Below, piece by piece: positions 7,727-63,752 of a stretch of 64,000 nt of DNA. Source of the stretch: Magnolia sinica (taxonomy: Eukaryota; Streptophyta; Magnoliopsida; Magnoliales; Magnoliaceae); the NCBI RefSeq assembly GCF_029962835.1, contig NC_080588.1, positions 67,190,501 to 67,254,500 of the forward strand. Reading direction: 5' to 3'. The notes under the pieces are model-generated. The model was not told the DNA's origin. It did no database searches and saw only the letters and a list, made by a program, of their open reading frames with translations. How positions within the stretch are numbered: the stretch's first letter is position 1; the number at the start of each line of letters is the position of its first letter. The translations under genes and the position numbers were made by a program.

Positions 7727-8251
7727 GGAAACGGATTGGCTACTCCCCCTGCCACCAGCCCCGTGGCTGATGGTCGGTGCTCTGTGGGCTCCACCATGAT
7801 GTATGTGTTTCATCCATTTTTACAGATCATTTTAGGCATTGATCCCAAAATTGAGAGGGATATAAATCTCAGGTTGACCACACCAAAGGAAAACAATATT
7901 GATTGGACATCCACCATTAAAATCATCCTAAGGCTCACTGTACTGTTTATTTGACATCTAATCTGTTGATTAGGTCATACATGCCTAGATGATGGGAAAA
8001 AACAAAAATAAGCTTGATCCAAAACTTTTATGGCCCCCAAAAGGTTTTTAATGGTTTACGTTCATTCAAATTTTTTTCCTATAATGTGGTCCACTTGAGA
8101 TTTGGATATACCTCATTTCTGGCCTTAAAAAATAAAATGATCTGGAAAATTTGATGGATGGCATGGATGAAACACATACATAATGTGGGGCTCACATACC
8201 ACCGACCATCAGCCATTGGCTGGGGGGAGGGGGGGTAGCCAATTCGTTTCC
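7727..8251. mobile_element. Mutator-like MITE, family A (long-TIR), copy 1
   Basis: Long hairpin-like element. The left end AAACGGATTGGCTACTCCCC mirrors the right end GGGGTAGCCAATTCGTTTCC, and the arms continue through the CTCCACCATGATGTATGTG motif toward the centre. Flanks GGTATGCTG (left) and GGCATGCGG (8252-8260) match at 7 of 9 positions. It is the same subfamily as the copy at 53594-54136. It is non-coding. Confidence 0.8.
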
Positions 8252-16884: not shown

Positions 16885-17493
16885 ATTGTAGTCAGATGTC
16901 TTAAATCTGTAATTCCCGTACTGCTCGACCAGTCGAGGGGGCTGCTCGACTAGTCAAGGGGGCTGTCGACTAGTCAAGGACAGTTCGACTCGAAGTCCAG
17001 CGTGTTTTTTCTTTTAGGTGTACGAGCCGCTTGACCAATCGAGGGTTAGACTTGATCGGTCGAGGGTGCCCTTCGACTGATCGAGGACCTGACTTCACTA
17101 GTCGAGGGTTATACAGATAGTGCGCGGATTTTGCGCGGACTGCGTAAATTTGAGACGGTTTTGTAGAGGTGCGGAATGCGAGTTTCCTAAACTATAAATA
17201 GGGGTCCCTATGGCTATTTTAAGGAATACTAAGGCTTCCTAAAGGGTTTCTAGAAGGGGTTTTAGGGTTTTAAAGGGTGTAGCAAGGGTGAGATTTAAGG
17301 TTGTTTGAATCGGGTAAATCTTCTCTCTTTGTAATTTATGTTTTCATAGTGGAATTCTTTTACTTTGTGTCATGATTTTTTTCCCAAAAGGGTTTTCTAC
17401 GTTAAATCTGCGTGTTCTCTTGTATGTGCTTGGTGTCATTGAATTGCTATACTAGATCTAGATCTGTGTAATTCTGCAACATAAATCCCCAAC
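16885..17493 (+). repeat. 5' LTR of the copia fossil
   Basis: Matches 19424-19953 in the same orientation. It carries a TATA-like box (CTATAAATAGGGGTCCC) and, upstream, a run of near-palindromic CTCGACTAGTCGAGG motifs. The end is placed at CCCCAACA before the primer site. Confidence 0.75.
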
Positions 17494-32930: not shown

Positions 32931-34144
32931 ATTTCTTGGATTGGAGTTCAACTAGTTTTTTCCAGTTCGACCACTGGACGAACTCGGGTCAAACGGACTC
33001 GGATCGAGTAAAAAACGAATATGGCCTCCTAAGTTGCACTCACTAGGACCGTTACTATGACTTGCATCCTCACCTTTGACCTAAGCCCATATGCAGGGCT
33101 AATAAAGGGAGAGGGTCACCCTATTGATACTAGCCGTTTACTTGACTCTCATCTCAATTTAGCATATCGTCCTTGGAGTAAATCTACTGCTGATACATTG
33201 GATTGTTTAGGCATCTCTGCCCATTATGAATTTTGACATGAGTCTCATTCTAATATGCTTTGAATCATTGACTCTGGGGCTAAAAATCACGTGACTAGTA
33301 AGGAAGGCAACTTTTTTACATCTGCCTCTTTCATGATCAAATAAGCTAGCTAACAAATCCTATTCCACAATTTCTGCGAAGGGATCTTGTCAACTCAACT
33401 CATCTCTCACTTTACCATCAGTTCTTTGTGTTCCTTCTTTTCCATCTAAATTGCTTTTTGTTAGTGCTCTAACCAAATAGTTGCATTGCTTTGTTACTTT
33501 TTTTTTCCCCCTCATTCTTATATTGTATAGGATCTGCAGACTATGAGGATTGGTATATGACATAAATATATCTCTAAAGACACTATATTTTTTTTAAGTT
33601 CCCTATTTTGAAACTAATGTTTTTGCTCCATCTCTTCCCCTTCGAGTTTTGGATTATACCACCACAATTGGAAGGGTAAACATTGAGACCCATCGTCCCA
33701 CCACATTTAACTCATCACTTGTAGACCTTGGTGATCCTCGTTCGAATGATCTTCCCATTGTAGTCCAGAAAGCTAAATATACCATCATACATCTATCTTA
33801 GTATGGTATCAATTGTAGTACCGTTCACCCAATTGGTAATCACAATGCTTGATGAGATGGCTGCTCTTGATAGACAAGCGACATGGGAGCTAGTAACTCT
33901 TTCTCAAGGGTATCATGTGGTAGGGGTATAAGTGGGTCTATGCTCTTAAGTACAATCCTGATTGTACAATTGATTGGTACAAAGCTTGCTTTGTTGCTAA
34001 AGGTTTTACTGGTACAAAGCTTGCTTTGTTGCTAAAGGCTTTACTTGAGTCCAAGATTGATTATCATGATACCTTCTCTCCAGTGACTAAGCTCACCTGC
34101 ATCGAATGCTCTTGCCGCTATTTTTTAAGTTCTGCCCCTACTGA

Positions 34145-34522
34145 ATGTGTTTGGTTCTCAAATATCCCGGAATAAATTCGTACTCTTCCAGAATTGTCCT
34201 CAAATCTTCTCTTCTTTCCAAACTAGACGGCAGCTACCAGTTAAGGGAGCGGATACGTGAACGTAACCGTCTTTATCAACGTAGACGGCGGGCACGGATG
34301 ACAGAAGACCAGAGGAAACGTGAAAGGGAGAGGCGGCGGCAGTACATGCAAAGCCGTAGGGTGCAGCCTATCAGCTACGAGATGCCGCTCCCTCTACCAA
34401 TCAGCTACAGTAGGCCGAAGGAATGCGAGCAAGGCCCTCAGTGCGGGCAGCAGCTTCGAGAAACCAGAGGCATTGAAACGGAGAAGAATCCAGGAATGGG
34501 AGAGGCCGGCGAAGCATCATAG
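34145..34522 (+). CDS. Arginine-rich ORF of unknown function, possibly an exon
   Basis: A 125-codon frame whose middle (about residues 33-70) is very rich in Arg and Glu (RERNRLYQRRRRARM, RKRERERRRQYMQ), followed by a Pro/Ser/Tyr segment and a Gly/Glu tail. A plausible splice acceptor (CTACCAG|TTAAGG at 34240) precedes the basic block, so it could be the last exon of a gene or a gene fragment captured by a transposon. Local GC content is higher than in the flanking copia fossil. The basic motif is reminiscent of Arg-rich segments seen in transposon-encoded proteins, but I cannot name a family. No upstream exon was found. Confidence 0.3.
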   Translation: MCLVLKYPGINSYSSRIVLKSSLLSKLDGSYQLRERIRERNRLYQRRRRARMTEDQRKRERERRRQYMQSRRVQPISYEMPLPLPISYSRPKECEQGPQCGQQLRETRGIETEKNPGMGEAGEAS

Positions 34523-34559
34523 CAAGATGTTTGTACAATATGAAAAGTACCATTTCAAT

Positions 34560-36014
34560 GGAGCACACCCAAGTTTCAAGGGTCCCTAAGAACACTACTG
34601 AGGCTGCATTGACCGGGTAACCGAAAGAACTCAATGCCATTCAGCTGCTCTGTACACCATAACGCTGCAACCATTGTTGGTATATAGAAACCTTCACACT
34701 TTTGCGTTAAAGGACAAGCTATGGGACAGATACCCATATCGAAACGGGCAGCATATATCCATGTAAGTGCTACAAGCTCTGCTCATATGCTATGTGTGGC
34801 GCATCAGCTACACCCTTTTTGTGATTATAGTTTTGATATGTTGTATAGATGTCAGACAGGTTATGGGTGTTGGAGATTTTCTTGTGAACCCATGTCCATA
34901 TGAATAAAAGATCAATCCCTGTCCGGGTGTTGTATTGGAATGCCTTATTAGATGTGCCAGTTTCATTGTTTGTGGTGCGTTTGGGTGCTCAATTGAACTA
35001 AATTGCAATAATCCAATTCAATATTAGGAGAAAGATCAAGTTGGGGTGGGCCCATTTTAGCTCAACGTGATCAAACCCCCTCTAATTGTGATTCCATGCG
35101 GTTTTGTGTTCTGATCTGTAACAGTACCGAATGTGGAATGCTAGGCAATTCCCTCTAGTAGAGATCGAAGTGGGAATTTCATGTGTGAGCGATCCAGGAC
35201 AATAGGTGGAGCTGACCTTCAACATGACTTCCCAGCGAATTGGCCTCACATATGAAGAAAATGAACGGTTGAAAAGGAATGTTAACGTCGAGTCCCACCT
35301 GATATATGGTCCGGATCCTGCACGTGCACCATTTTGGCATGTGTCCCAGGCTTCATATGATCAGGAATACATTTCATATCAATGATGTAAGAAGCAATCA
35401 CTAAGGTTGCAACTAGGCCGTACAAGCTTCTGTGGGGTCCAGTCCATGAGTGAAGGACCGTCGTATATTGCAAGAGCTTTGCGAACACTGCTCTTGCTGG
35501 CCCATCTCCACATTGGATGCCTACTTACCAAAAGAGAGGAAAAAGAAGAGCTAATCCCTCTCTTCCTTTTGGGCCCCACACATGGGGCCCATGAGGAATT
35601 TCAGTTTGGTTATATTCTTAATCTTTTTGCACCACTCGTCGGAGCAGTCATGATAAGGGGCCCAGATCTCATGCACGTGTGCTGTGTCGACATGTGTGTG
35701 GCAGCTGTGTTTGGTGGGCAGATGGACGGTGCGTCAAAGACTCAAAACGCAAGTGCTCTGCACTTCCCAATAGGCACGTGCGATATACTGCAAGGACATT
35801 GGACGTGCCTCTTTGATCCTGCCTTTTTAAAAACAGTTTTCTCCGACCGTGTGACTCACTTTTAAGCCATTGTCTCTCTGCCCCTCCAAACTTACTTTAC
35901 CAAACTATGATACTTCTGTTTACCGGAGCAAAATGCCATGCTTTAAAGAAATGTAATTTTTAAAAGCTGTTGTAGTGAAACCTATCGCTACGGATTATAA
36001 CCATAGCCATAGAC
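34560..36014. other. Intergenic, no supported gene
   Basis: A 152-codon frame at 35407-35865 has no recognisable domain and contains family words (GGGGCCCATGAG, GGTGGGCAGATGGACGG) typical of the repeats, so I do not call it. Nothing else is seen. Confidence 0.4.
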
Positions 36015-36300
36015 AAACATGAAATTCACCAAGCCTAACATGGAATTTACCAAGCCTAACATGGAATTTACCGAGCCTAACTTGAAACTGACTGAGCCTA
36101 ACATGCAATTCACTAAGCCTAACTTGAAATTAACTGAGCCTAACTTGAAATTAACCAAGCCAAACATGAAATTGACCGAGCCGAATATGAAATTGACCGA
36201 GCATAACGTGAAATTCACTGAGCCTAACTTGAAATTCACCGAGCCTATTATGAAATTGAGTGAGCTTAACATGAAATTGAGCAAGGCCAACATGAGAGTA
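36015..36300 (+). repeat. 21-bp minisatellite array A (MKLTEPN type)
   Basis: About 13 units of consensus AACATGAAATTGACCGAGCCT, with alternations ATGAAATT/TTGAAATT and ACCGAGCC/ACCAAGCC. The period of exactly 21 keeps one frame (MKLTEPN) open through the block. The antisense reading (KLGSVNF type) is also open. Confidence 0.95.
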
Positions 36301-36374
36301 CTTACCTTCTCTTTGGTATCTCTTGCGTTTATGAATATTATTAAATTGCTTTGATATACATTGGATCCCCTCTT

Positions 36375-36480
36375 TTAACTCAAACTTGAAAACTTTGAAC
36401 CCATGATTCACATCCTCCTACCCATGCATCATGTGAATCGCGGCCTTTAGTTTCTTTAAAGTTTTCAAGTTTGAGTTGAG
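36375..36480. repeat. Short inverted repeat
   Basis: AACTCAAACTTGAAAACTTT (about 36378-36397) and its inverse AAAGTTTTCAAGTTTGAGTT (36458-36477) are perfect inverted copies separated by about 60 bases. Confidence 0.85.
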
Positions 36481-36690
36481 AAGAATGCCAGGACAGCCTA
36501 ATCGAAATAAAACTTAATATTTATAGCAAAAATGAAAATAAAATGGACTTTCTGCCATTGATAGGTTGGTTGGCTAAATTAGCTTCTCCTACTCCAAAAT
36601 CATATATGATATGTCAAAAAACTCATTTCGGTGTGCAACATACAACTGTTTTAAGGTTGGACATGTAGCTAGTCGAGGTCGACCCCGACT
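36456..36690 (+). repeat. Direct duplication, copy 1 (pair with 37786-38030)
   Basis: Shares TTTGAGTTGAGAAGAATGC, AACTTAATATTTATAG, GGTTGGTTGG and ATATGATATGTCAAAAAACT in the same order and orientation with 37786-38030. A block of array plus linker was therefore duplicated as a unit of about 1.33 kb. Confidence 0.85.
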
Positions 36691-36732
36691 GGACCCGGTC
36701 GACCCCATCTTGCTGCCTAACCACCTAGCTGC

Positions 36733-37760
36733 ATGAAATTCAACGAGCCTCAAAGGAAATTGAGCGAGGCTAACATGAAATTCAACGAGGCAAACATCAA
36801 TTTCATGTGAAGCTCAGTGAATTTCATTTGAAGCTTGATCAATTTTATGTGAAGCTCGGTCAATTTCAAGTTTAGCTCAGTCAATTTCAAGTTAGGCTCA
36901 GTCAATTTCATGTGAAGCTTGGTCAATTTTACTCACTTTGCGGTTAAGTTCACTCAATTCGTGGTCAATTTTACTCACTTCACGGTCAAGTTCACTAACT
37001 TCGCGGTGAACTTTACTCACTTCGCGATGAATTTCAATTACTTTGCGGTCAATTTCAGTCACTTCATGGTAATTTTCACTCACTTCGCGGTCAATTTCAA
37101 TCACTTCGCGGTAAATTTCACTCACTTCTCGATCACTTTCACTTACTTCGCGGTCAATTTCACTCACTTCGCAGTCAAGTTTACTTACTTCGCAGTCAAA
37201 TTCACTTACTTCGCAGTGAATTTCACTCACTTCGCAGTGAATTTCACTCACTTCGCGGTTAAGTTCACTCACTTTGCGGTGAATTCCACTCACTTCGCGG
37301 TGAATTTCACTCACTTCATAGTAAATTTCAATCACTTCGCGGTCAATTCTAGTCACTTCGCGGTCAATTTCACTCACTTCTCAGTCAAGTTCACTCACTT
37401 CTCAGTCAATTTCACTCACTTCGCGGTTAAGTTCACTCACTTCGCGGTGAACTTTACTTACTTTGTGGTAAATTTCGGTCACTTCGCAGTCAAGTTCACT
37501 AAATTTCACTTATTGGTCAAGTTCACTCACTTCACGATGAACTTCACGGTCAATTTCGCTTATTTCGTGGTCAATTTCAATCACTTCACGGTCAATTTCA
37601 GTCACTTTGTGGTCAAATTCAATGAGCCTAACGTGAAATTCAACGAGACGAACGTGAAATTCAACGAGCCTAACATGAAATCCAACTATCCTAACGTGAA
37701 ATTTAATGAGCCTAACATGAAATTCACCGAGCTGAACATGAAATTCACAATATTAATATC
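36733..37760. repeat. 21-bp minisatellite array B (mixed orientation; EIDREVS type)
   Basis: Short plus-orientation MKLTEPN-type units at both ends (about 36733-36800 and 37615-37745) enclose about 40 minus-orientation units. Those units begin as AGCTCGGTCAATTTCATGTG and turn into TTCACTCACTTCGCGGTCAA-type units from about 36930 to 37620. The plus frame is open from 36919 to 37809 (VNFTHFA repeats), and the minus frame from 37377 to 36898 (EVSEIDR repeats). Confidence 0.95.
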
Positions 37761-37785
37761 TTCTATAGTGATTAACTATATGGGT

Positions 37786-38030
37786 TTAAAGTTTTCAGGT
37801 TTGAGTTGAGAAGAATGCTAGGGTAGCCTAATTGAACCATAACTTAATATTTATAGTAAAAACAAAAACAAAATGGGCTTTCGGCCATCGATCTAATGCA
37901 ATCTCGCAAATTTGCTAGGTTGGTTGGTTCAATTAGCTTCTCTTACCCCAAAATCAATATATGATATGTCAAAAAACTCATTTCGATTTGCAACATATGA
38001 CTATTTTAAGGTTAGGCAGACAGACAGCAA
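37786..38030 (+). repeat. Direct duplication, copy 2 (pair with 36456-36690)
   Basis: Second copy of the linker, followed like the first by a switch into array sequence. Differences between the two copies amount to scattered substitutions, so the duplication is not recent. Confidence 0.85.
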
Positions 38031-38042
38031 GTCAGGGTTGAC

Positions 38043-38250
38043 CTCGAAATTGAACACGAAGTGAGTAAAATTGACCAAGAAGTGAGTGAGCTTGACCATG
38101 AAGTGAGTGAAATTTACCACGAAGTGAGTAAACTTGACCACGAAGTGAGTGAAATTGACCGCGAAGTGAGTGAACTTGACCGTAAAGAGAGAGAAATTGA
38201 CCGCGAAGTAATTGAAATTCATTGTGAAGTTAGTGAAATTGACTGAAATT
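38043..38250 (+). repeat. 21-bp minisatellite array C (EIDREVS type, plus orientation)
   Basis: About ten units of ATTGACCGCGAAGTGAGTGAA in plus orientation, that is, inverted relative to the bulk of array B. The frame reads SEIDREV/SELDHEV. Confidence 0.95.
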
Positions 38251-38266
38251 CACCGTTGTGGTTGAA

Positions 38267-38336
38267 GTTATTTGGGCCCCATCATGATGTATGTTTTGTA
38301 TCCGGACCATCCATCAATTTGGAGAGATCATGCAAC
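38267..38336 (+). mobile_element. Family A MITE end, copy 1
   Basis: TTTGGGCCCCATCATGATGT, TTTGTATCCGGACC and GGAGAGATCATGCAAC. This is the terminal arm of the MITE subfamily seen whole at 46468-46990, cut off after about 70 bases where array D sequence begins. Nearly identical to 38681-38752. Confidence 0.75.
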
Positions 38337-38344
38337 CCCGTCCT

Positions 38345-38640
38345 AATATAAATTCGAACGAACTTAAAATGAAATTGAACGAGCTTAACTTGAAATTCAC
38401 CGACCCTAACATGAAATTGACCAAGGCGAAGATGAAATTCACCGAGGCGAACATGAAATTGAACGAGGCGAACATGAAATGAGGATACTGACCCTTAAGC
38501 CCAGTCAATTTCATTTGAAGCTCGGTCAATTTCAAGTTGGCTCGGTTAATTTCAAGCTAGGCTCGATGCATTTCATGTGAAGCTCGGTCAATTTCATGTC
38601 TAACATGAAATTGACCGAGGCGAACATGAAATTGAACGAG
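38345..38640. repeat. 21-bp minisatellite array D
   Basis: MKLTEPN/MKLNEAN-type units to about 38482, then a boundary word (GAGGATACTGACCCTTAAG), then inverted units (CTCGGTCAATTTCA) to about 38600, then plus units again. Orientation changes at least twice within 300 bases. Confidence 0.9.
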
Positions 38641-38680
38641 GTCGACCGGGTCCATATGGGGTCGACCCGATTCGGCTCAA

Positions 38681-38752
38681 AGTTGTTTAGGCCCCATCAT
38701 GATGTATGTTTTGTATCCAGACTGTCCATCCATTTGGAGAGATCACGCAACA
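38681..38752 (+). mobile_element. Family A MITE end, copy 2
   Basis: TTTAGGCCCCATCATGATGT, TTTGTATCCAGACTGTCC and GGAGAGATCACGCAAC. Again only the terminal arm is present, running straight into array E. It lies 414 bases from copy 1 in the same orientation. Confidence 0.75.
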
Positions 38753-38754
38753 AC

Positions 38755-39605
38755 TTAATATGAAATTCGAGGTCCCTAACATGAAATTGAACGAGCTTAA
38801 CTTGAAATTCATCGACCTTAACATGAAATTGATCGAGGCGAACATGAAATTGATCGAGGCGAAAATGAAATTCACCGAGCCTAAATTGAAATTGAACAAG
38901 CTTAACATGATTTTGAACGAGCCGAACTTGCAATTGACCGAGCCTAATAAGAAATTCACCGAGCCGAACTTGAAATTGACTGAGCCTAACATGAATAGAC
39001 CGAGCTTAACATGAAATTCACCGAGCCTAATTTGAAATTGACTAAGCCTAAATTGAAATTGACCAAGCTTTACATGAAATTGACCGAGCTTCAAATGAAA
39101 TTGACTAAGCTTGAAATGAAATAGAACGACCCTAACATGAAATTGACCGAGGCGAACATGAAATTCACCGAGGCGAACATGAAAATCACCGATCCAACAT
39201 GAAATTGACCGAGCTTAACTTGAAATTCATCAACCCTAACATGAAATTGACTGAGGCGAACATGAAATTCAACGAGCGGAACATGAGATTCACTGAGACT
39301 AATAAGAAATTGACCGAGCCTAACATGAAATTCACCAACCCAACATGAAATTGACCGAGACGAACATGAAATTGAACGAGCTTAACATGAAAGTGAACAA
39401 GGTGAACATGAAATTCACTGACCCTAACATGATTATTACTGAGCCTAATATAAAATTTACCGAGCCTGTACATGAAATTGACCAAGCCAAACTTGAAATT
39501 GACCAAGCTTCACACGAAATTCACAAAGCCTAACTTAAATTGATCGAGCCAAACTTCAAATTGACCGAGCTTCAAATGAAATTGACCAGGCTTTAGGGTC
39601 AGTAT
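38755..39605 (+). repeat. 21-bp minisatellite array E (longest MKLTEPN-type block)
   Basis: About 40 units of the AACATGAAATTGACCGAGCC type, all in plus orientation. It ends at TTTAGGGTCAGTATCCTCA, the inverse of the GAGGATACTGACCCTTAA word in array D. Both strands stay open for long stretches. Confidence 0.95.
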
Positions 39606-39776
39606 CCTCAATTTAATATTTCAAAGTTTAAACAAAATATACAAAATTTTCATATATTATAAATTTAATATAAAACAAATTGTCATTCACTATAAAATTT
39701 ACACAAAATATCTATTACAAAACAAAATTCATCATTTCACAAAATTTCTCTGTTCCTCCCATGCCTAAGACAAATA

Positions 39777-40440
39777 TCATTTATGAGCAACACTCAAACA
39801 ATCATATGCTATTGAATTCCTCCAAATTGGAGTGAATTTTTGCATATCTGTTCCCGCCAAAGTGTAACCGCTGTACAATATGTCAATATATTTCATTACA
39901 AATAAGTCGCAGTCATAACCATTTGTTTGCTTTGGTGTTGATCTCTCTTCTATGGCGGTCCGGCTCTTCCCGTCGAGCACAAACATGTCACTTGTGGCAT
40001 GAAATATAATGGGGAACCCCTCGGTAATCAACTTAATCTTTTCCTTGTACTTCGTGAGTGTGTTCATATATAAACTATTGTACAGAACGATCTCTCGTTT
40101 TCTTGGGTAGATCACCATAAAAAATCAATGCGCATTATCGTGGTTGATGGGTACATACACCTGTCCACGTTTTAAAAAATAATATTTTATTAAAGATATG
40201 ATAGAAAAAGATACAGTTAGCGTTGATTATTTGGGACAAAAACATTACGACATCCTTGTGCTTATTGGTGTCAACTATCCTTGCAAACACTTCTCCTAAA
40301 TCTTTCTTATAAATTGAATGTTTTTTGAAGTACCTCTCTCGTATTGTATTCATTGTGGGAGGAATTTTCGGTATAGATAGGTCTCCAATCTTAAGCCTAG
40401 TTATAAGGGCGAAGTCCATTTTTGTGAATTTCAAAGGCAT
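39777..40440 (-). pseudogene. DUF1985 + Ulp1-type cysteine protease remnant (Kaonashi-like Mutator element)
   Basis: On the minus strand a DUF1985-like segment (40440 down to about 40160; KFTKMDFALITRLKIG, then NTIRERYF and a KDVVMFLSQIINANCIFF stretch) is followed by the C-terminal half of a Ulp1/C48 protease (about 40150-39777). The catalytic His lies in HDNAH and the oxyanion Gln and nucleophile Cys in KQTNGYDC, but the expected Asp is Asn (VLYNSLY). An in-frame TGA replaces the Trp codon after the His (near 40116), and most of the protein linking the two domains is absent, so it is dead. DUF1985-Ulp1 proteins are carried by Kaonashi-type Mutator-like elements. No mudrA transposase was seen. 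It lies between arrays E and F. Confidence 0.7.
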
Positions 40441-40795
40441 CCCCCGTATTTCAAATACAAGGTTGCCTCTACATCTTGCAAAAAGAATGTGAAATAAAGC
40501 TCATATGAATATAAAGGGTGAAGTGTGCAACAAAAAAGAAAATGGGGACTGCCTAAAAAGATTTAGCCGGCTATCGTCCTTTTCCAACCCACACTTAACC
40601 ATATCAAACCACTATCTAAGTGAACACTTGCATGATAGGTTTGAGACTCCATCAAAAGAATGAACACTTACAAGAATGAATTGCAAAATATAATAAAAAT
40701 AAAGTTTAATAATTAGTTTTGTAAAGCAAGATGTAAAAAATTAAAAATAATTTAAGTCGTTCAAGCACTTCATAAGAATATTGCTAGTCGGCGAT
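40441..40795. other. Flank of the Ulp1 remnant, no feature seen
   Basis: AT-rich sequence between the DUF1985 segment and array F. It may be 5' part of the same dead element, but no codons can be assigned. Confidence 0.35.
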
Positions 40796-40799
40796 CTTC

Positions 40800-42030
40800 A
40801 CCAATGAAATTCATGTTCGGCTCAGTGAATTTCATGTGAGGCTTGGTCAATCTCATGCTACGCGCTGTCAATTTCATGTGAGCCTCGGTCAATTTCATGT
40901 GAAGCTCAGTGAATTTCAAGTGAGGCTCGGTGAATTTCATGTTCGACTCAGTCAGTTTCATGAAAGAAATTGACCAAGCCTCAAATGAAATTGACCACGC
41001 TTAATATGAAAATGACCGAGCCTCACATGAAATTGATCGAGCCTAGCATGAAAATGACCAATTCGAACATGAATGAAATTGATGTCTTCAACTGAGTTAA
41101 ATTGACTGTGAACATCGTGAAATTAACCGAGGACTCAGTTAAATTGGCCGAGCCTCAAATGAAATTGATAGCGATTAACATGGAATGCACTGAGCCTCAC
41201 ATGAAATAGACCGAGCCTAGCATGAAAATGATCGAGCGAAACATGAGTGAAATTGACCGAGGATTGAAAGAAATTGACTAGGCCTCAAATGAAATTGAAC
41301 GCACTTAATATGAAATTCACCAAGCCTCACATGAAATTGACCAAGCCTAGCATGAAAACGACCGAGCTGAACATGAGTGAAATTGATCGCGAACATCGTG
41401 AAATTGACCAAGTTGAACATAAGCCATTGACTGCAAACTGAGTAAAATTGACCGCGAACATCGTGAAATTGACTGAGGACTTAGTTAAATTGACCGAGAA
41501 CTTAGTGAAATTGACCGCAAATATTGTGAAATTGACTGAAGACTCTGTTAAATTGACCAAGCCTCAAATGAAAATGACTGAGAACTTAGTGCAATTGACC
41601 ATGAACATCGTGAAACTAACCGATAACTGAGTGAAATTAACCAAGAACTTGCTTAAGTTGGTGCTTAAGTTGGTGAAATTGACTGATGACTAAGTGAAAT
41701 TGACCGCGAACTGAGTTAAATTGAATGATAAGTGAATAAAATTGATCGAGAACTCGCTCGTGAAGTTGTCGCTTAATTTCCGCAAGTTCTCGGTTAACAC
41801 AATGTCAATTTCAAGTAGTTATCGGTCAATTTGACTCAGTCCTTGGTCAATTTCACACAGTTCTCAGTAAAGATGTCAATTTTAAGCAGTCTTAGGTTAA
41901 TTTCACTTACGCCTCGGTCAATTTAGCTCAGTTCGTGGTTAATTTAGCTCAGTTCATGGTCAATTTAACTCAGTTCACGGTGAATTTTAGTAGTCCTCGG
42001 TTCATTTCATTCGGTCTTCGTTCAGTTACA
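40800..42030. repeat. 21-bp minisatellite array F
   Basis: Minus-orientation units (40800-40965: CTCGGTGAATTTCATGTGAG type), then plus units to about 41760 that include MKLTEPN-like copies (TCACATGAAATTGACCGAGC) and a third type (GAACTTAGTGAAATTGACCG), then minus units again to about 42010. All types share the core GAAATTGACCG and the 21-base step. About 58 units by length. Confidence 0.9.
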
Positions 42031-42990
42031 CTTTGGTATTCGTTCATTGATTAAAAAAAAGCATCAACGTTGGCCATTTGAGCATTAAATTTGCATCGTT
42101 TTTCAACTCATGCCATAAAATGTATAAATAAAATAGCCGAACTATGGACGGTGGAGATATATCATATAAAATATGGTGGGGTCCACATAACGAAGTCGAG
42201 ACATTGAAATATACTTACCATTCATGGCTTCTTTGATGGGAGCACTATTTTTGACCTATCTTGGGTTAACAAAACTCGAAAATGACATATGTGGTAAGTG
42301 TAATTTTGACCAAAAGAAAAATATACTGAAAATTGAAATTTTACTGCTAGGATAGATAATCAGAAAAATGAGAAAAAATTTAAAAATGAAGGTTTTACTG
42401 TGAGGGTGGACAACCACAATAAGAAGAGAAGGATTCGGAAAATGAAGATTTTTTTTTTTTTTTGATGGAATAAACAATCACAGAGAAAAGAGAAAAAACA
42501 GGGAACATGAGAATTTTTCTGTTAAGGTTTAACAATGTGAGGGGAATAGTAGCAAACTGCGTTTCCGATAAGGTGGGGAATTTTGGTCCAGTAAAAAGGC
42601 TTCCGTACAGAAGGACCATAGTTTACTACAGTAAGTTTGGTCGGGCAGAGTACGGTAGGTGGCTTAAATGTGAGGCCTACACCGGAAAAAAGTCGTTAGA
42701 AAATTAGTATAGTCCATTCATCCGGTGGGCCACCCAACATGGAGTGTCGATTGTCGGCTAACGTTTTCTAACCGTTTGTTTCTTTCTGTACACATGAAGC
42801 TTACTTGATGAGCACGTGCTGAGGAGGATTTAGACAGGATCCGCTGATGAATGTCTTGGATCCCATGCACACGTGCGAAGTAGACGTGCAAGGCTCCTGT
42901 GCTAGTAGTGATCCAGCCCATTCATCCGGTGGGGCATGATAAATGAACGAGAACATGCCAATTACAGAGACCCTATCTACAAGCACTAAA
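42031..42990. other. Intergenic, low-complexity A-rich then unique
   Basis: A-rich sequence with purine runs (42260-42500), then sequence containing TGAATGTCTTGGATC and GTGGGCCACCC words. No gene is supported. Confidence 0.35.
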
Positions 42991-42994
42991 ACAC

Positions 42995-43445
42995 AAAACG
43001 CCTCACCATGATGTATGTATTTCATCCATTACGTTCATCCATTTTTAAAGATCATTTTAGGGATTTATTCCAAAAATTAGAGGTATATAAATCTCAGGAC
43101 CACACCACATGAAAACAGTGGTGATTGGATATCATCATTAAAATCCTCCTAAGGCCCAGTGTACTGTTTATTTGACATCCAATCTGTTTATTAGGTCATA
43201 CAGGCCCAGATGAAGGGAGAAAACAAAAATCATCTCGATCCAAAACTTTTATGGCCCCAAAATGTTTTTAATGGTTGACGCTCATTCAACACTGTTTCCT
43301 GTAATGTGGTCCATTTCAGATTGGGATATACCTCATTTTTGGTCTCGTGCCGTAAAATGATCTTTAAAAATAGATGGACGGCATGGATGAAACACATACA
43401 TCATGGTGGGGCTCACGGAGCACAGACCACCGGCCCCAATCCGTT
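42995..43445. mobile_element. Family A MITE
   Basis: From CTCACCATGATGTATGTATT plus TCATCC through the family order to GGATGAAACACATACATCAT and GGTGGGGCTCAC. The two arms are mirror images over most of their length. Closest to the 7727 and 53594 subfamily, but the GGATTGGCTACTCCCC outer ends are missing. Confidence 0.65.
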
Positions 43446-46400
43446 CCCGATCCATGACGCCCAATGTATCAGGTGGGCCACGCATGTACTAAGAGATGGC
43501 GTACATGTGTCACTCACCTGATGAGTAAGGCCGGCAGAAACATGCAGTCAGACACTTTCCTTGTATACTCGGGTTTTCAATTCTCGTAAATGAAGCCAAT
43601 GCTTCAGCAATCCATGCCGCTGGTCTGTTGTGGCCTACTGTGGATAATTGATATTTGAAAGTTCTTTCTCACAGAACGATCATGACCTTCCAATTTGTGT
43701 CCTACAAATAGACGGCTATGGGAGAAATATAGAAATAGTCCACATGATTGGTGGATAGGATTCTCCAATCTGGTAGATTTTCAGGGCATGGTGCATCCAC
43801 GATGGGACACAACAGAACCATGGTCTGGATTACAAAAGCATGCGCTGCACTTCTCTGAATAGCAAACGTGCATATACCATCGAAGGTTCATGTCTCCACG
43901 TGTAATTCCTAGATCACCCACGAGTGTGCCAACTAGCACGTGTGAAGCGTTTGTCTTTGGCCCTTGAAGATGAAACGTGTCGATTGAGCGTGCACTTACT
44001 TAAAACCAGCCATTGATGTTTATTTCACATGTGGTGTGACCCACTTGGGTTTTGGATCAGCCTATATTTTGGGCTGACATCCTAAGAATAAACGATGGAC
44101 GGAGTGGATGTGACACACATCATGGTGGGCCCCACAGATCTTGTTGCACACGCTTGTTGTGGGAAATTAGCTAGAGTGCCCTCTCCTCCGCACATATGGG
44201 AGTGGTGAATGTATGAATCAGGACCGTCCATCTAGTGGACACTACTTGGATGGACATTTGACTCTTTTACAAAATAGTGCAAAAAATCCAACCATCAAAA
44301 CATTACAGAAACGAAAGCATTTGCCTTTCTCTGACGTGGATGGAACGACCTTAGATCCACACCGTCCATCAGGTGGGCCACCATGTGTTTGGAACGGGGG
44401 CTGATGCGCAACACAGGTGGGCTACACTATAGTAAACAATTGAGGTGGTAAATCTCACCATTAAAATCGTAAAGATTGTGTTTAGGGTCCACCATGATAT
44501 GTGTATTCCATCCAGTCCACTCATCTGACATGATACATAAGGATCAATGTATTTATCAAAAATCAGAATATTCTGAGACTCATGCTTTCCACACCACCTG
44601 AATTTAGAGGTTTAAGGAACGATTTTACACTCTTCCGTATGGTGTGGCCCACCAAAGTCATGGATTATAATACTTTTAGGATCCATGGTGAAAATGCAGT
44701 GGCACACATGATTAACGGGGTGGATCTTATTCTTTTTTTGTCCCACGTGTCTCTTAGTTAGTGCAATTCAGGCCGTCCGCGTACATCCCAAAAATTCTTC
44801 AACGGTTTCCATCCAATGGAAAAAATGTGCAAAAAATCAGTAGACACCAACCTCAGATTTTCTTATTTTTCATATTAAAAGCTATCTGAGAAACGTTACA
44901 GAAAACGGACGGTCCCGATCGATCTATACCTCGACCAAATGAATGAAACTCACGCGATTCTACTGTATTTATTCGGTACTTTGTTCTACTGTATAATCTC
45001 CAGCGAAGAGTAAGAAACACGCGAGCTACGATTTTTGGGAAGTCCTCCGACACACCTGCCATTTTTCCTAACCCGAAAAAGCGCTGCTTATTTCCGGCGC
45101 GCATGTGCACGATAGCCTTTTCCATTTCTCTTCTGAATTTTTATACAGCTTTCACCTCTTTTGATTTTTATATAAAAACTCATTCTTCTTTTTTCGGTTC
45201 GGAAAGAAAGGAAGGAGACCCAAACAGAGACAGAGAGAGAGAGAGAGAAGAAATGAAGAAGAAGAAGAAGAAAAAGAAGAAGAACGGAAAATATCGTGAT
45301 TTGAGGAGCTTCGGTTTTCTCCAAACAGGTCAGATTTCTTTCAAAAAAAAAAACCAAAATGAGTTTTTTTATTTTTTATTTTTTTATTTCAGACCATTTT
45401 CATACTGAAAATTGACATTTGCACCCCTTTTTTTGATACCCAAACACCCCTGCAGTTGCTTTGTAGAAGTATAGGGGGTGTAATGTAAAAAAAAGTAGAG
45501 TGTGTATAGAGTCTCTCTTGAATGTTTAACATGCATTGGTGTTTTTATTTTGCGCCTGTCGCGACTGAGGAGCGTGCGTGTGTCGCTTCTCATAGGGGCC
45601 CACATAATGAGAAGGTTCGATGATTTCAGTCATCCATATTCTAGTTGCCACCATAAATGATTATCTGTTCCATAATCATGTTTCAGCGATGATCTTGACC
45701 TTTGATTTTTAAAATAGAATGCAAGCCATTGATAATTCTTTTCTTTGTTCTAAATTCATGTACCGATAGTGTAGTTTCAATCATCTGTTCGGCGTAAATT
45801 TCATGTATTTTCCCGTATATAATAGATTCCACTCCACGGACGGTCCTGATCACTGGATCACTCAGAATATGGGACCCAGTGGAGGGCGACAGACGCTGGA
45901 TCCAGAGTCGCGGCGGAGGTAAAACGAACTCTTTTAGATTGCTGTTGACGTAGTTATAAGACCACAACTGCCACTCGGTTTCTACAAATGGCAAGCTAGT
46001 TATGATGTGGTTACACGTTAATAACAAAACAACACGGGTTTATTTTGGGAAATTAAAAGATGGAATGAAATCGCGTCCGCCACGAGTCGTTTTGCAATAT
46101 GCAGTGTACTTTCATCAGTTCGAATTCGAAACGAGATTTTTGCCGGTCCAGCTTTGCCGGTCCGCACACGAGTGTACAATCAACTAATGCACACGTCACC
46201 AAATATGCCAGCGTGGCATACAAGTAATATATCCAACCCATCCATCAGAAGAACTTCACTACGTTGATTCCCACTCCCAAGAATTAGGTCAGTCCATCAG
46301 TCAGGTGGTCCACAGGACAAATGTACGGTTTCTAACCCATCCACTTATTTCTAAGATCATGGCACAGTTACCGAGTAGACCATCTTTATCTTTCAGCTGT

Positions 46401-46467: not shown

Positions 46468-46990
46468 GACAGGTTGAGTAGCGAGACCCGCTACTGAAGT
46501 GACGTCACCAACTTCTGTGGGCCCCACCATGGTGTATGTTTTGTATCCACACCGTCCATTCATTTTGAGAGATTATTTTAGGGCATGATACAAAGAACAA
46601 GGCAGATCCAAGGCTGGAGTGGACCCCACCACAGAAAGGAGAGAGTGACACCCACCGTTGAAACCTTCCGAAGGTCCACCGTGACGTTTATTTGAGATCC
46701 AACCTGTTCATGTATTAACGCAGACATGAGAGAAGGGAAAACACAAATATCAGCTCTATCGAAAACTTTTGTGGCCCTCAGAACTTTTTAACGGTGGGCG
46801 TCACTCTCCCCACTGTTTTCTGCGGTGAGGCTCACTCGGGCTTTGGATCTGTCTCATTCTTTGGCTGATGGCCTAACATGATCTCTCCAAATGGATGGAC
46901 GGTGTGGATACAAAACATACATCGTGGTGGGGCCCACAGAAGTTGGTGACGTCATTTCAGTATCGAGTCTCGCTGCTCAACCTGTCACTC
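46468..46990. mobile_element. Family A MITE with GACAGGTTGAG ends
   Basis: Complete long-TIR element. The left end GACAGGTTGAGTAGCGAGAC mirrors the right end GTCTCGCTGCTCAACCTGTC. Next inward come CACCAACTTCTGTGGGCCCC and its inverse, then TGTATGTTTTGTATCC arms. This subfamily supplied the truncated ends at 38267 and 38681. The target duplication is not clear. Confidence 0.8.
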
Positions 46991-47071
46991 GCGTACTAGC
47001 TGACTGGTAGAACTGCAACTCATCCTATCAGTCCTTTTATTTTAAATAGTAATTTTCACTAGATGGTTAGT

Positions 47072-47502
47072 GGCTCTGTGGGGCCCACCGTGATGTAAGT
47101 GTTTTATCCACGCCGTTTACCGCTTTTATCAGATCATTTTAAGGTATGATACTAAAAATTAGGCAGGTCCAAATCTTAAGTGGACCACAAAGTGGGGATT
47201 GAACGTCTACCATTAAAAACTTCTTGGGAGCTGGAGAAGTTTCGGATCAAGCTGATATTTTTGTTTTCACTTCATCCACTTCTACATGACCTTATTAATA
47301 GGTTGGATGGTAAAAAAACACATCACGTTGGCCCTTAGAAAGGTTTGGACGGTACGTGTCATTATCGGTACAGCTTCCTTTGGTGTGGTCCACTGGAGCT
47401 GTGGACTTGTCTCATTTTTAGGATCATGCTTTAAAATGATCTGATAAAACCGGGGAACGGAGTGGATAAAATACTTACATCACGGTGGGCCCCACAGCGT
47501 CC
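47072..47502. mobile_element. Family A MITE with perfect 9-bp target duplication
   Basis: Ends GG-CTCTGTGGGGCCCACCG and the inverse CGGTGGGCCCCACAGCGTCC. It is flanked on both sides by ATGGTTAGT (47063-47071 and 47503-47511), a perfect 9-bp direct duplication. Length is 431 bases. This copy fixes the family's ends and places it with Mutator-type elements. Confidence 0.9.
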
Positions 47503-53593: not shown

Positions 53594-54136
53594 GGAAACG
53601 GATTGGCTACTCCCCCTGACACCAGCCCCGTGGCCGGTGGTCAGTGCTCTATGGGCCCCACCATGATGTATGTGTTTCATCCATTCTGTTCATCCATTTT
53701 TAAAGATCATTTTAGTGCTTTAAACTAAAAAAGGAAGAAGGATATAAATCTTAGGTGGACCACACCACAGGAAAACAATAGTGATTGGATATCCATCATT
53801 TAAATCCTCCTAAGGCCCACTGTACTGTTTATCTGACATCTAATATGTTGATTAGGTCACAAAGACCCAGATGAAGGTCAAAAACAAAGATCAGCTTCAT
53901 CCAATACTTTTATGGCCCCCAAAAAGTTTTTAATGGTCGACGTTCATTCAACACTGTTTCCTGTAATGTGGTCTACTTGAAATTGGGATGCACCTCTTTT
54001 TTTTTGTGTAATACCATAAAATAATCTAGAAAAATAGATGGACGGCATGGGTGAAACACATACATCATGGTGGGGCCCACAGGGAACCGAACACCAGCCA
54101 TTGGCTGGTGTCAGGGGGAGTAGCCAATCCGTTTCC
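53594..54136. mobile_element. Mutator-like MITE, family A, complete
   Basis: The 20-base ends GGAAACGGATTGGCTACTCC and GGAGTAGCCAATCCGTTTCC are perfect inverses, and the arms continue through TGACACCAGCC and the CCCACCATGATGTATGTG motif. Flanks ATCGCCACC (53585-53593) and ATCACCACC (54137-54145) match at 8 of 9, a Mutator-size target duplication. Same subfamily as 7727-8251, with cleaner ends. Confidence 0.9.
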
Positions 54137-63429: not shown

Positions 63430-63611
63430 TTTGGGGACTTATAATGATTTGTATATTTTATACTCTGATTACAGTCTTCCGCTTGCATAAATTTAACTGT
63501 CCCTGGAGTATGATCTGGTGTTTGGGGACTTACAATGATTTGTATATTTTATACTCTGATTACAGTCTTCCGCTTGCATAAATTTAACTGTCCCTGGAGT
63601 ATGATCTGGTG
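63430..63611 (+). repeat. Tandem duplication, 91-bp unit, near-identical
   Basis: Two adjacent 91-base units start TTTGGGGACTTA at 63430 and 63521; I see one difference (ATAATG against ACAATG). It lies close to the LTR's 3' end. The low divergence means it is much younger than most repeats here. Confidence 0.95.
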
Positions 63612-63752
63612 TTTTAACTTAATCTCATTCATGTTTTTATGCATTAACATGGACAACATTAAATCATCATTATGTATGTTGCATAAGTGATGCGTTAGAA
63701 CTCGGGAGTTGGGTACCTGCTCAACCCCTGATTTTCAGGGCGTTACACATAT

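Follow-up and report, generated by a model that had tools for sequence, protein, structure and literature searches.

Arrays of 21-bp repeats in both orientations around a broken Ulp1/C48 gene in Magnolia sinica: possible docking sites of a dead VANC/KIU-like element

A domain of about six kilobases in the genome of Magnolia sinica carries arrays of 21-bp tandem repeats, which face both ways and lie on both flanks of a broken Ulp1/C48 protease gene. The domain belongs to a stretch of 64,000 nucleotides (NCBI RefSeq assembly GCF_029962835.1, contig NC_080588.1, positions 67,190,501 to 67,254,500 of the forward strand), which was analysed as a whole, is called the window below and supplies all coordinates. 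An initial annotation of this DNA had described a six-kilobase patchwork of some 180 minisatellite units of 21 bp, in both orientations and of three types with a common core. A profile scan of the whole window, with six models (three unit types on two strands) and 34,001-44,000 as the training region, bears out the types, the orientations and the number: array sequence amounts to 3,895 bp, or about 185 unit lengths, and lies entirely within 36,011-42,048. The domain does span 6 kb, of which array sequence makes up only 3.9 kb, distributed over six tracts (36011-36295, 36732-37748, 38046-38255, 38342-38640, 38754-39593 and 40805-42048). The scan called no array units in the rest of the 64 kb, and not a single base in three 10-kb controls made by resampling the dinucleotides of the window. 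Finer segmentation yielded 210 pieces, 170 of them 19-23 bp long and 157 exactly 21 bp. Exact copies of the word GAAATTGACCG number 13 on the plus strand and 10 on the minus strand, every one inside 36,000-42,030; with at most one mismatch there are 56 and 24 copies, none outside that interval, and with at most two mismatches 96 of 103 and 52 of 56 copies, by strand, fall inside it. The spacing, announced as strictly 21 bases, is near-strict: between successive same-strand core matches (at most three mismatches, 35.9-42.1 kb) 139 steps measure 21 and 6 measure 20, the next commonest value.

The layout given by profile segmentation begins with a plus-strand array of about 13.6 type A units (a1, 36011-36295), followed by a spacer (N1, 36296-36731). 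A further 3 or so plus-strand A units (a2, 36732-36796) abut about 6 reversed ones on the minus strand (a3, 36797-36919), which lead into about 33 minus-strand units of type B (b1, 36920-37615) and again about 6 plus-strand A units (a4, 37616-37748). After a second spacer (N2, 37749-38045) comes a plus-strand array of about 9.4 B units with a short A stretch (b2, 38046-38255), about 200 bp of which are complementary at 76-81% to parts of b1. Two plus-strand copies of a 72-bp fragment of a miniature inverted-repeat transposable element (MITE) family, at 38265-38336 and 38680-38751, then enclose a plus-strand A array (a5, 38342-38480), a minus-strand segment that contains array a6 (38481-38599) and two plus-strand units (a7, 38600-38640), a7 and a6 forming a perfect inverted repeat with 17-bp arms and a 3-bp centre. 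Beyond the second copy lies the 40-unit, plus-strand type A array a8 (38754-39593). On the other side of the gene are about 7.5 minus-strand A units (a9, 40805-40962), a plus-strand array of mixed A and C units (c1, 40963-41757) and about 14 minus-strand C units (c2, 41758-42048). Summed from segment coordinates, about 2.5 kb of array runs on the plus strand and about 1.4 kb on the minus strand. The many changes of orientation noted in the initial annotation are found as six direct flips, at 36796/7, 37615/6, 38494/5, 38599/600, 40962/3 and 41757/8; arrays of both orientations occur on the same side, and the outermost arrays face inward.

The three unit types share the core TGAAATTGACCG and differ in the other nine bases, their consensus units being GAAATTGACCGAGCCTAACAT (A), GAAATTGACCGCGAAGTGAGT (B) and GAAATTGACCGAGAACTTAGT (C), two of which had previously been written one base short. 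Mean identity to the own consensus is 0.836 for A (91 units), 0.871 for B (38 units) and 0.765 for C (28 units). Pooled over the 157 units of exactly 21 bp, conservation is 0.86-0.96 at position 21 and positions 1-6, 0.99 at position 8 and 0.73-0.76 at positions 9-11, and in the spacer it is 0.42-0.68 at positions 12 and 14-20 and 0.83 at position 13. The core was thus kept or reused as the types diverged. The commonest 9-mers are TGAAATTGA, in 55 of the 157 units, and TGAAATTCA, in 27, the latter palindromic except for its central base. CG sites carry an excess of transitions in type A (44/182 versus 51/637, p 2.6e-8) and in type B (31/152 versus 21/228, p 0.002), a decay compatible with past cytosine methylation. 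As a separate observation, TTGACC or TTGACT, the core of the WRKY W-box, occurs 75 times on both strands of 36011-42048 (12.4 per kb, versus 1.3 per kb elsewhere), and is lost in the 59 of 157 units where position 7 holds a base other than G. Another short period-21 array, with a unit unlike A, B and C, is present at 16921-16990 (CTGCTCGACTAGTCAAGGGGG, 2.9 copies in 16921-16979).

Growth of the arrays proceeded in multi-unit steps, since super-repeats of 146 bp (38777-39587, in a8) and 130 bp (41117-41412, in c1) are present. In addition, blocks were copied as blocks. Part of the first spacer (36455-36700) recurs as a direct duplication in the second (37785-38047; 202 of 234 aligned bases identical), and the 72-bp MITE fragment was duplicated together with its adjoining array (38265-38480 and 38680-38892; 184 of 212 aligned bases identical). 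The fragment at 38265 is 90% identical to the 38680 copy and 87% to 46944-46877. An inverted pair, 38481-38599 and 39609-39491, has 104 of 118 aligned bases identical (88%), the same unit order and the cap GAGGATACTGACCCTWAAGCC: its left arm, on the minus strand, consists of GAGGATACTGACCCTTAAGCC and 21-bp units (array a6), and its right arm (39491-39609, plus strand) terminates in AGGGTCAGTATCCTC. For the array part of this pair, no score as high was obtained in 1000 draws of random units from the same array, in which no other in-phase position does better than the anchored one. The earlier statement that blocks end at the same boundary words applies to the end word inverted at 38481/39609 and to the MITE fragment at 38265/38680, but not to the outermost array ends, which have no exact 8-10-mer in common, direct or inverted. 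Conservation of unit order across arrays in general was set aside. Under a control suited to phase-shifted arrays, none of 200 permutations reached the observed score for 10 of 45 array pairs; 6 of those 10 involve 36797-37615, where mixing of A and B units inflates the result, and for the pair a8/c1, top under a control too lenient for such arrays, 1 of 200 permutations reached it. Palindromes at the flips were likewise left unused as a mechanism, opposite arrays yielding palindromes in any case; among six junction points scored against a null of 150 positions (38487 standing for 38494/5), 38599 reached 16.25 versus a null maximum of 8.5, 36796 equalled that maximum, 41757 scored 6.25 versus a 95% point of 6.0, and the remaining three fell below the 95% point.

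The MITE family from which the duplicated fragments come measures about 410-450 bp, has inverted ends around GGGCCCCACCATGATGTATG and is represented by many diverged copies across the window, among them 7771-8208, 43000-43412, 46503-46951, 47064-47494 and 53637-54079. Sequence comparison thus agrees with the initial annotation that MITE pieces are embedded in the domain, and the protease gene that it also reported is identified by its PF02902 match (see below). The idea that the fragment at 38680-38751 and a MITE-like stretch at 42069-42190 are halves of one MITE was dropped, because the latter is only 62-75% like family members. An imperfect inverted repeat at 36371-36484 adjoins array a1 and reappears in part, in inverted form, at 37814-37780. 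Elsewhere in the window, a 91-bp tandem pair with 98% matches lies at 63430-63614.

Between the arrays, at 40160-39819 on the minus strand, lies coding sequence for the C-terminal portion of an Ulp1/C48 protease, interrupted by an in-frame stop. It matches PF02902 with an E-value of 2.7e-6 for the open piece alone, which improves to 9.8e-14 when the stop is read through. The C48 His and Cys are at the expected positions, and an Asn seems to stand in place of the Asp, a reading taken from a low-scoring stretch (-4.0 bits) of the SENP1 alignment; all three positions are catalytic in such proteases. Against PDB sequences the piece gave weak matches to SENP2 and SENP1 (best E 0.019), and its matches in NCBIfam, all below cut-off, were to bacterial Ulp1-type families. 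Upstream on the same strand lies a DUF1985-like stretch (40228-40464, PF09331), and the C48 fragment starts 67 bp beyond it; the two probably belong to one gene. The DUF1985-like stretch matched nothing meaningful among PDB sequences (best E 0.41), and single-sequence structure models had predicted local distance difference test (pLDDT) values of 37, for this stretch, and 38. The copy at this locus now looks dead. Matches of open reading frames (ORFs) in the window were to copia gag, integrase, kinesin, malectin, UDP-glycosyltransferase and DUF1985, a set in keeping with plant DNA, and Rfam gave no match at gathering thresholds.

Both Ulp1/C48 and DUF1985 appear in descriptions of Mutator-like elements (MULEs). 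The VANC anti-silencing proteins of VANDAL transposons, worked out in Arabidopsis, are described in passages of two papers as binding motifs in non-coding tandem repeats, which are located in introns and in intergenic and terminal non-coding regions, and evolve via gain and loss of repeats (PMC5735166, PMC10398659). According to a figure legend, DUF1985 is found in VANC proteins (Fig. 5 of Hosaka 2017, PMC5735166). VANC genes carrying Ulp1 constitute the KIU (Kaonashi) group, which, in the words of a 2026 review citing a 2022 paper, recognise motifs in the non-coding regions of their kin. Of these features, the present locus has an Ulp1/C48 domain and tandem repeats with a common core (a putative binding motif) and no clear coding signal. 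It resembles the VANDAL/VANC system, as portrayed in those passages, in combining what may be a DUF1985 gene (a weak match here) with motif-bearing non-coding tandem repeats that grow and shrink (PMC5735166, PMC10398659), and Kaonashi/KIU MULEs, in the parts of the sources consulted, in a C48 domain in a Mutator-like setting, a DUF1985-like stretch upstream and no clear terminal inverted repeats (TIRs) (PMC2528002, PMC13317346).

We tentatively favour the reading that the locus is a dead relative of such a DUF1985-Ulp1 (VANC/KIU, Kaonashi) Mutator-like system, and that its arrays are former docking sites. It is preferred because a DUF1985-like and Ulp1 remnant with motif arrays on both flanks is the expected leftover of such an element. 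A sequence-specific anti-silencing protein of the element's own would have docked on the 21-bp arrays, binding the near-palindromic TGAAATTSA at intervals of 21 bp, or two turns of the helix, whichever way the word faces and on both flanks of the gene. Its binding would have stripped the element of methylation, allowing the element to be expressed, and the arrays may have been enlarged through unequal exchange or slippage together with inverted duplication. We infer in this scheme that the weak neighbouring match is indeed DUF1985, that its protein bound TGAAATTSA and that the effect was anti-silencing. With less confidence still, it may be supposed that a DUF1985-Ulp1 lineage beyond the studied VANDALs had a target code of its own, with a near-palindromic 9-bp word, a two-turn step, two-way and very large arrays, and spacers that were swapped as the word itself was retained.

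Several results weigh against the docking reading. Within subtypes, core divergence is 0.125-0.167 and spacer divergence 0.056-0.164, the core being higher in 4 of 5 groups (134 of the 157 units; the groups were formed by spacer, which lowers spacer divergence and places spacer variation between groups by construction). Because core divergence within subtypes matches or exceeds that of the spacer, there appears to be no sign of present constraint on the core. Unit position 7, moreover, is only 0.62 conserved (G in 98 and C in 38 of 157 units), and the excess of transitions at CG sites falls short of significance in type C (13/56 versus 22/168, p 0.09). The PF09331 match is weak (E 0.0013; 19.2 bits, under the curated cut-off of 35.1). 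The VANC21 motif is absent from the window, and the VANC6 motif occurs twice in it, both times outside the arrays. No transposase domain was found in the ORFs scanned, which were 52 of 67 of at least 88 amino acids, outside array starts, shorter ones being unscanned.

Convincing outer ends of an element were also not found. A possible but uncertain outer inverted repeat pairs 35825-35959 with 42703-42554 (right arm 42554-42703); it scores 44.7, versus at most 18.4 in 200 shuffles, and 388 region pairs drawn at random from this MITE-rich window included 8 that reached the same score. The pair, diverged, 135-150 bp long and enclosing the whole array domain, may belong to one element or consist of two separate copies of some dispersed repeat. 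Mutator elements in general have target duplications of about 9 bp; here there was no exact 8-10-mer target duplication at four candidate boundary pairs, including this outer repeat, and none of 8-11 bases with at most one mismatch at the outer repeat. The previous suggestion of a large non-autonomous transposon thus retains the transposon context (C48, the DUF1985-like stretch and the 118-bp inverted ends inside the domain), but lacks defined ends and a target duplication.

The locus differs from VANDAL/VANC elements in further respects. The VANC motifs given in the consulted passages, YAGTATTAY, AGTTGTCC and AGTTGTAC, differ from the core found here. The gene is broken, neither transposase nor DUF287 was detected in the ORFs scanned, and about 185 unit lengths follow each other at a 21-bp step in both orientations. 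The same scan recovered no mudrA-type gene, as would belong to a Kaonashi/KIU MULE, and the parts of the sources consulted do not describe large two-way arrays for KIU (PMC2528002, PMC13317346). We therefore liken its presumed mode of action to that of a VANC target array and do not class the locus as a VANDAL, since a transposase was sought and not found in the ORFs scanned; it is possibly a deleted derivative of a VANDAL/KIU element. Within the literature covered, which largely leaves out subscription papers, no described element with these units, or with a comparable number of 21-bp units facing both ways, was found. Papers containing one of five unit words concern, by title, unrelated subjects, and the unit-pair pattern was matched neither among viral contigs nor among bacterial and archaeal ones, collections that are not meant for plants.

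Docking arrays are preferred to neutral growth, and neutral growth to foldback ends. As the second of these explanations, and one we regard as quite conceivable, the arrays may be minisatellites that grew neutrally in transposon debris through slippage, unequal exchange and inversions, without ever having served as binding sites. The core, which within subtypes is no less diverged than the spacer, the 146- and 130-bp super-repeats, the block duplications that carry along unrelated MITE sequence, and the lack of defined ends at the boundaries tried are all in keeping with such growth. Pooled over the types, however, the core is kept and variation lies mostly in the spacer, a pattern that spacer replacement by recombination in the core could mimic, and plain slippage would not usually leave six flips and plenty of units in either orientation.

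A composite-ended element is a third explanation. FARE is a foldback element with inverted ends of short tandem units. If the locus were of this foldback type, or a long-TIR Mutator element, the arrays would be composite inverted ends containing transposase binding sites, which we consider unlikely. The interval 38481-39609 is indeed bounded by 118-bp inverted arms of 21-bp units with a common end word (GAGGATACTGACCC), the outermost arrays face inward, and the nematode Tm1 is described as having composite TIRs and a Mutator-type transposase (PMC3169594). As far as the source passages go, the inverted ends built of short tandem units in FARE and Tm1 find their likeness here inside 38481-39609, the outer ends being weak; the Tm1 unit is 13-15 bp with 9-bp target duplications, whereas the unit here is 21 bp (PMC3169594). 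Target duplication was not found at the boundary pairs tried, nor transposase in the ORFs scanned, arrays on the same side face both ways, and the outer inverted repeat is not rare for the window. MULEs with multiple long TIRs, from the portion of the report seen, similarly have duplicated end modules in one element, but there whole TIRs are doubled, whereas here 21-bp units are multiplied (PMC3310237).

It is improbable that the arrays served as a source of hairpin RNA, in which transcripts of opposite arrays would fold into duplexes and give rise to small RNAs silencing the family. RNA reading across the opposite B arrays would form a long duplex: the predicted fold of 36797-38255 has -487 kcal/mol versus -321 (sd 21) in 12 dinucleotide-resampled controls, that of 38342-39609 has -321 versus -250 (sd 14), and the array domain contains 8 exact inverted matches of at least 21 nt. 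The CG decay in the units would also suit this explanation. Any inverted repeat folds in this way, however, and the folding may be a side effect of how the arrays are arranged.

In CACTA elements, short subterminal motifs occur facing both ways. A CACTA-type origin of the arrays, as subterminal repeats of this kind, is very improbable: Ulp1 domains are described from five grapevine CACTA families, but CACTACAA does not occur on the plus strand of the window, the array-proximal one of four TTGTAGTG (35970) would close an element leftward, away from the arrays, and no CACTA transposase was found in the ORFs scanned. Least likely of all is that the units code for heptapeptide repeats (21 bp being 7 codons) of a coiled-coil protein, since both strands are open at once and no clear coding signal emerged from nonsynonymous/synonymous ratios by frame; there are open frames of up to 297 amino acids, one frame with generic coiled-coil Pfam matches and, in the 297-residue frame, the lowest ratio among stop-free frames (1.57 versus 2.62 expected), but stop-containing frames are as low against expectation (A 2.13 versus 3.16; C 2.14 versus 3.92), and long frames stay open on both strands because the unit lacks easy stops, the expected single-step stops of the 297-residue frame being 0.0, so that its length needs no selection.

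If the arrays are not docking sites, the locus still documents the joint copying of a short unit, inversions and captured MITE pieces in transposon debris. If they are docking sites, an anti-silencing strategy with an Ulp1 partner would have been elaborated into large two-way arrays, and the word TGAAATTSA, together with its periodic layout, would be a candidate target that is directly testable.

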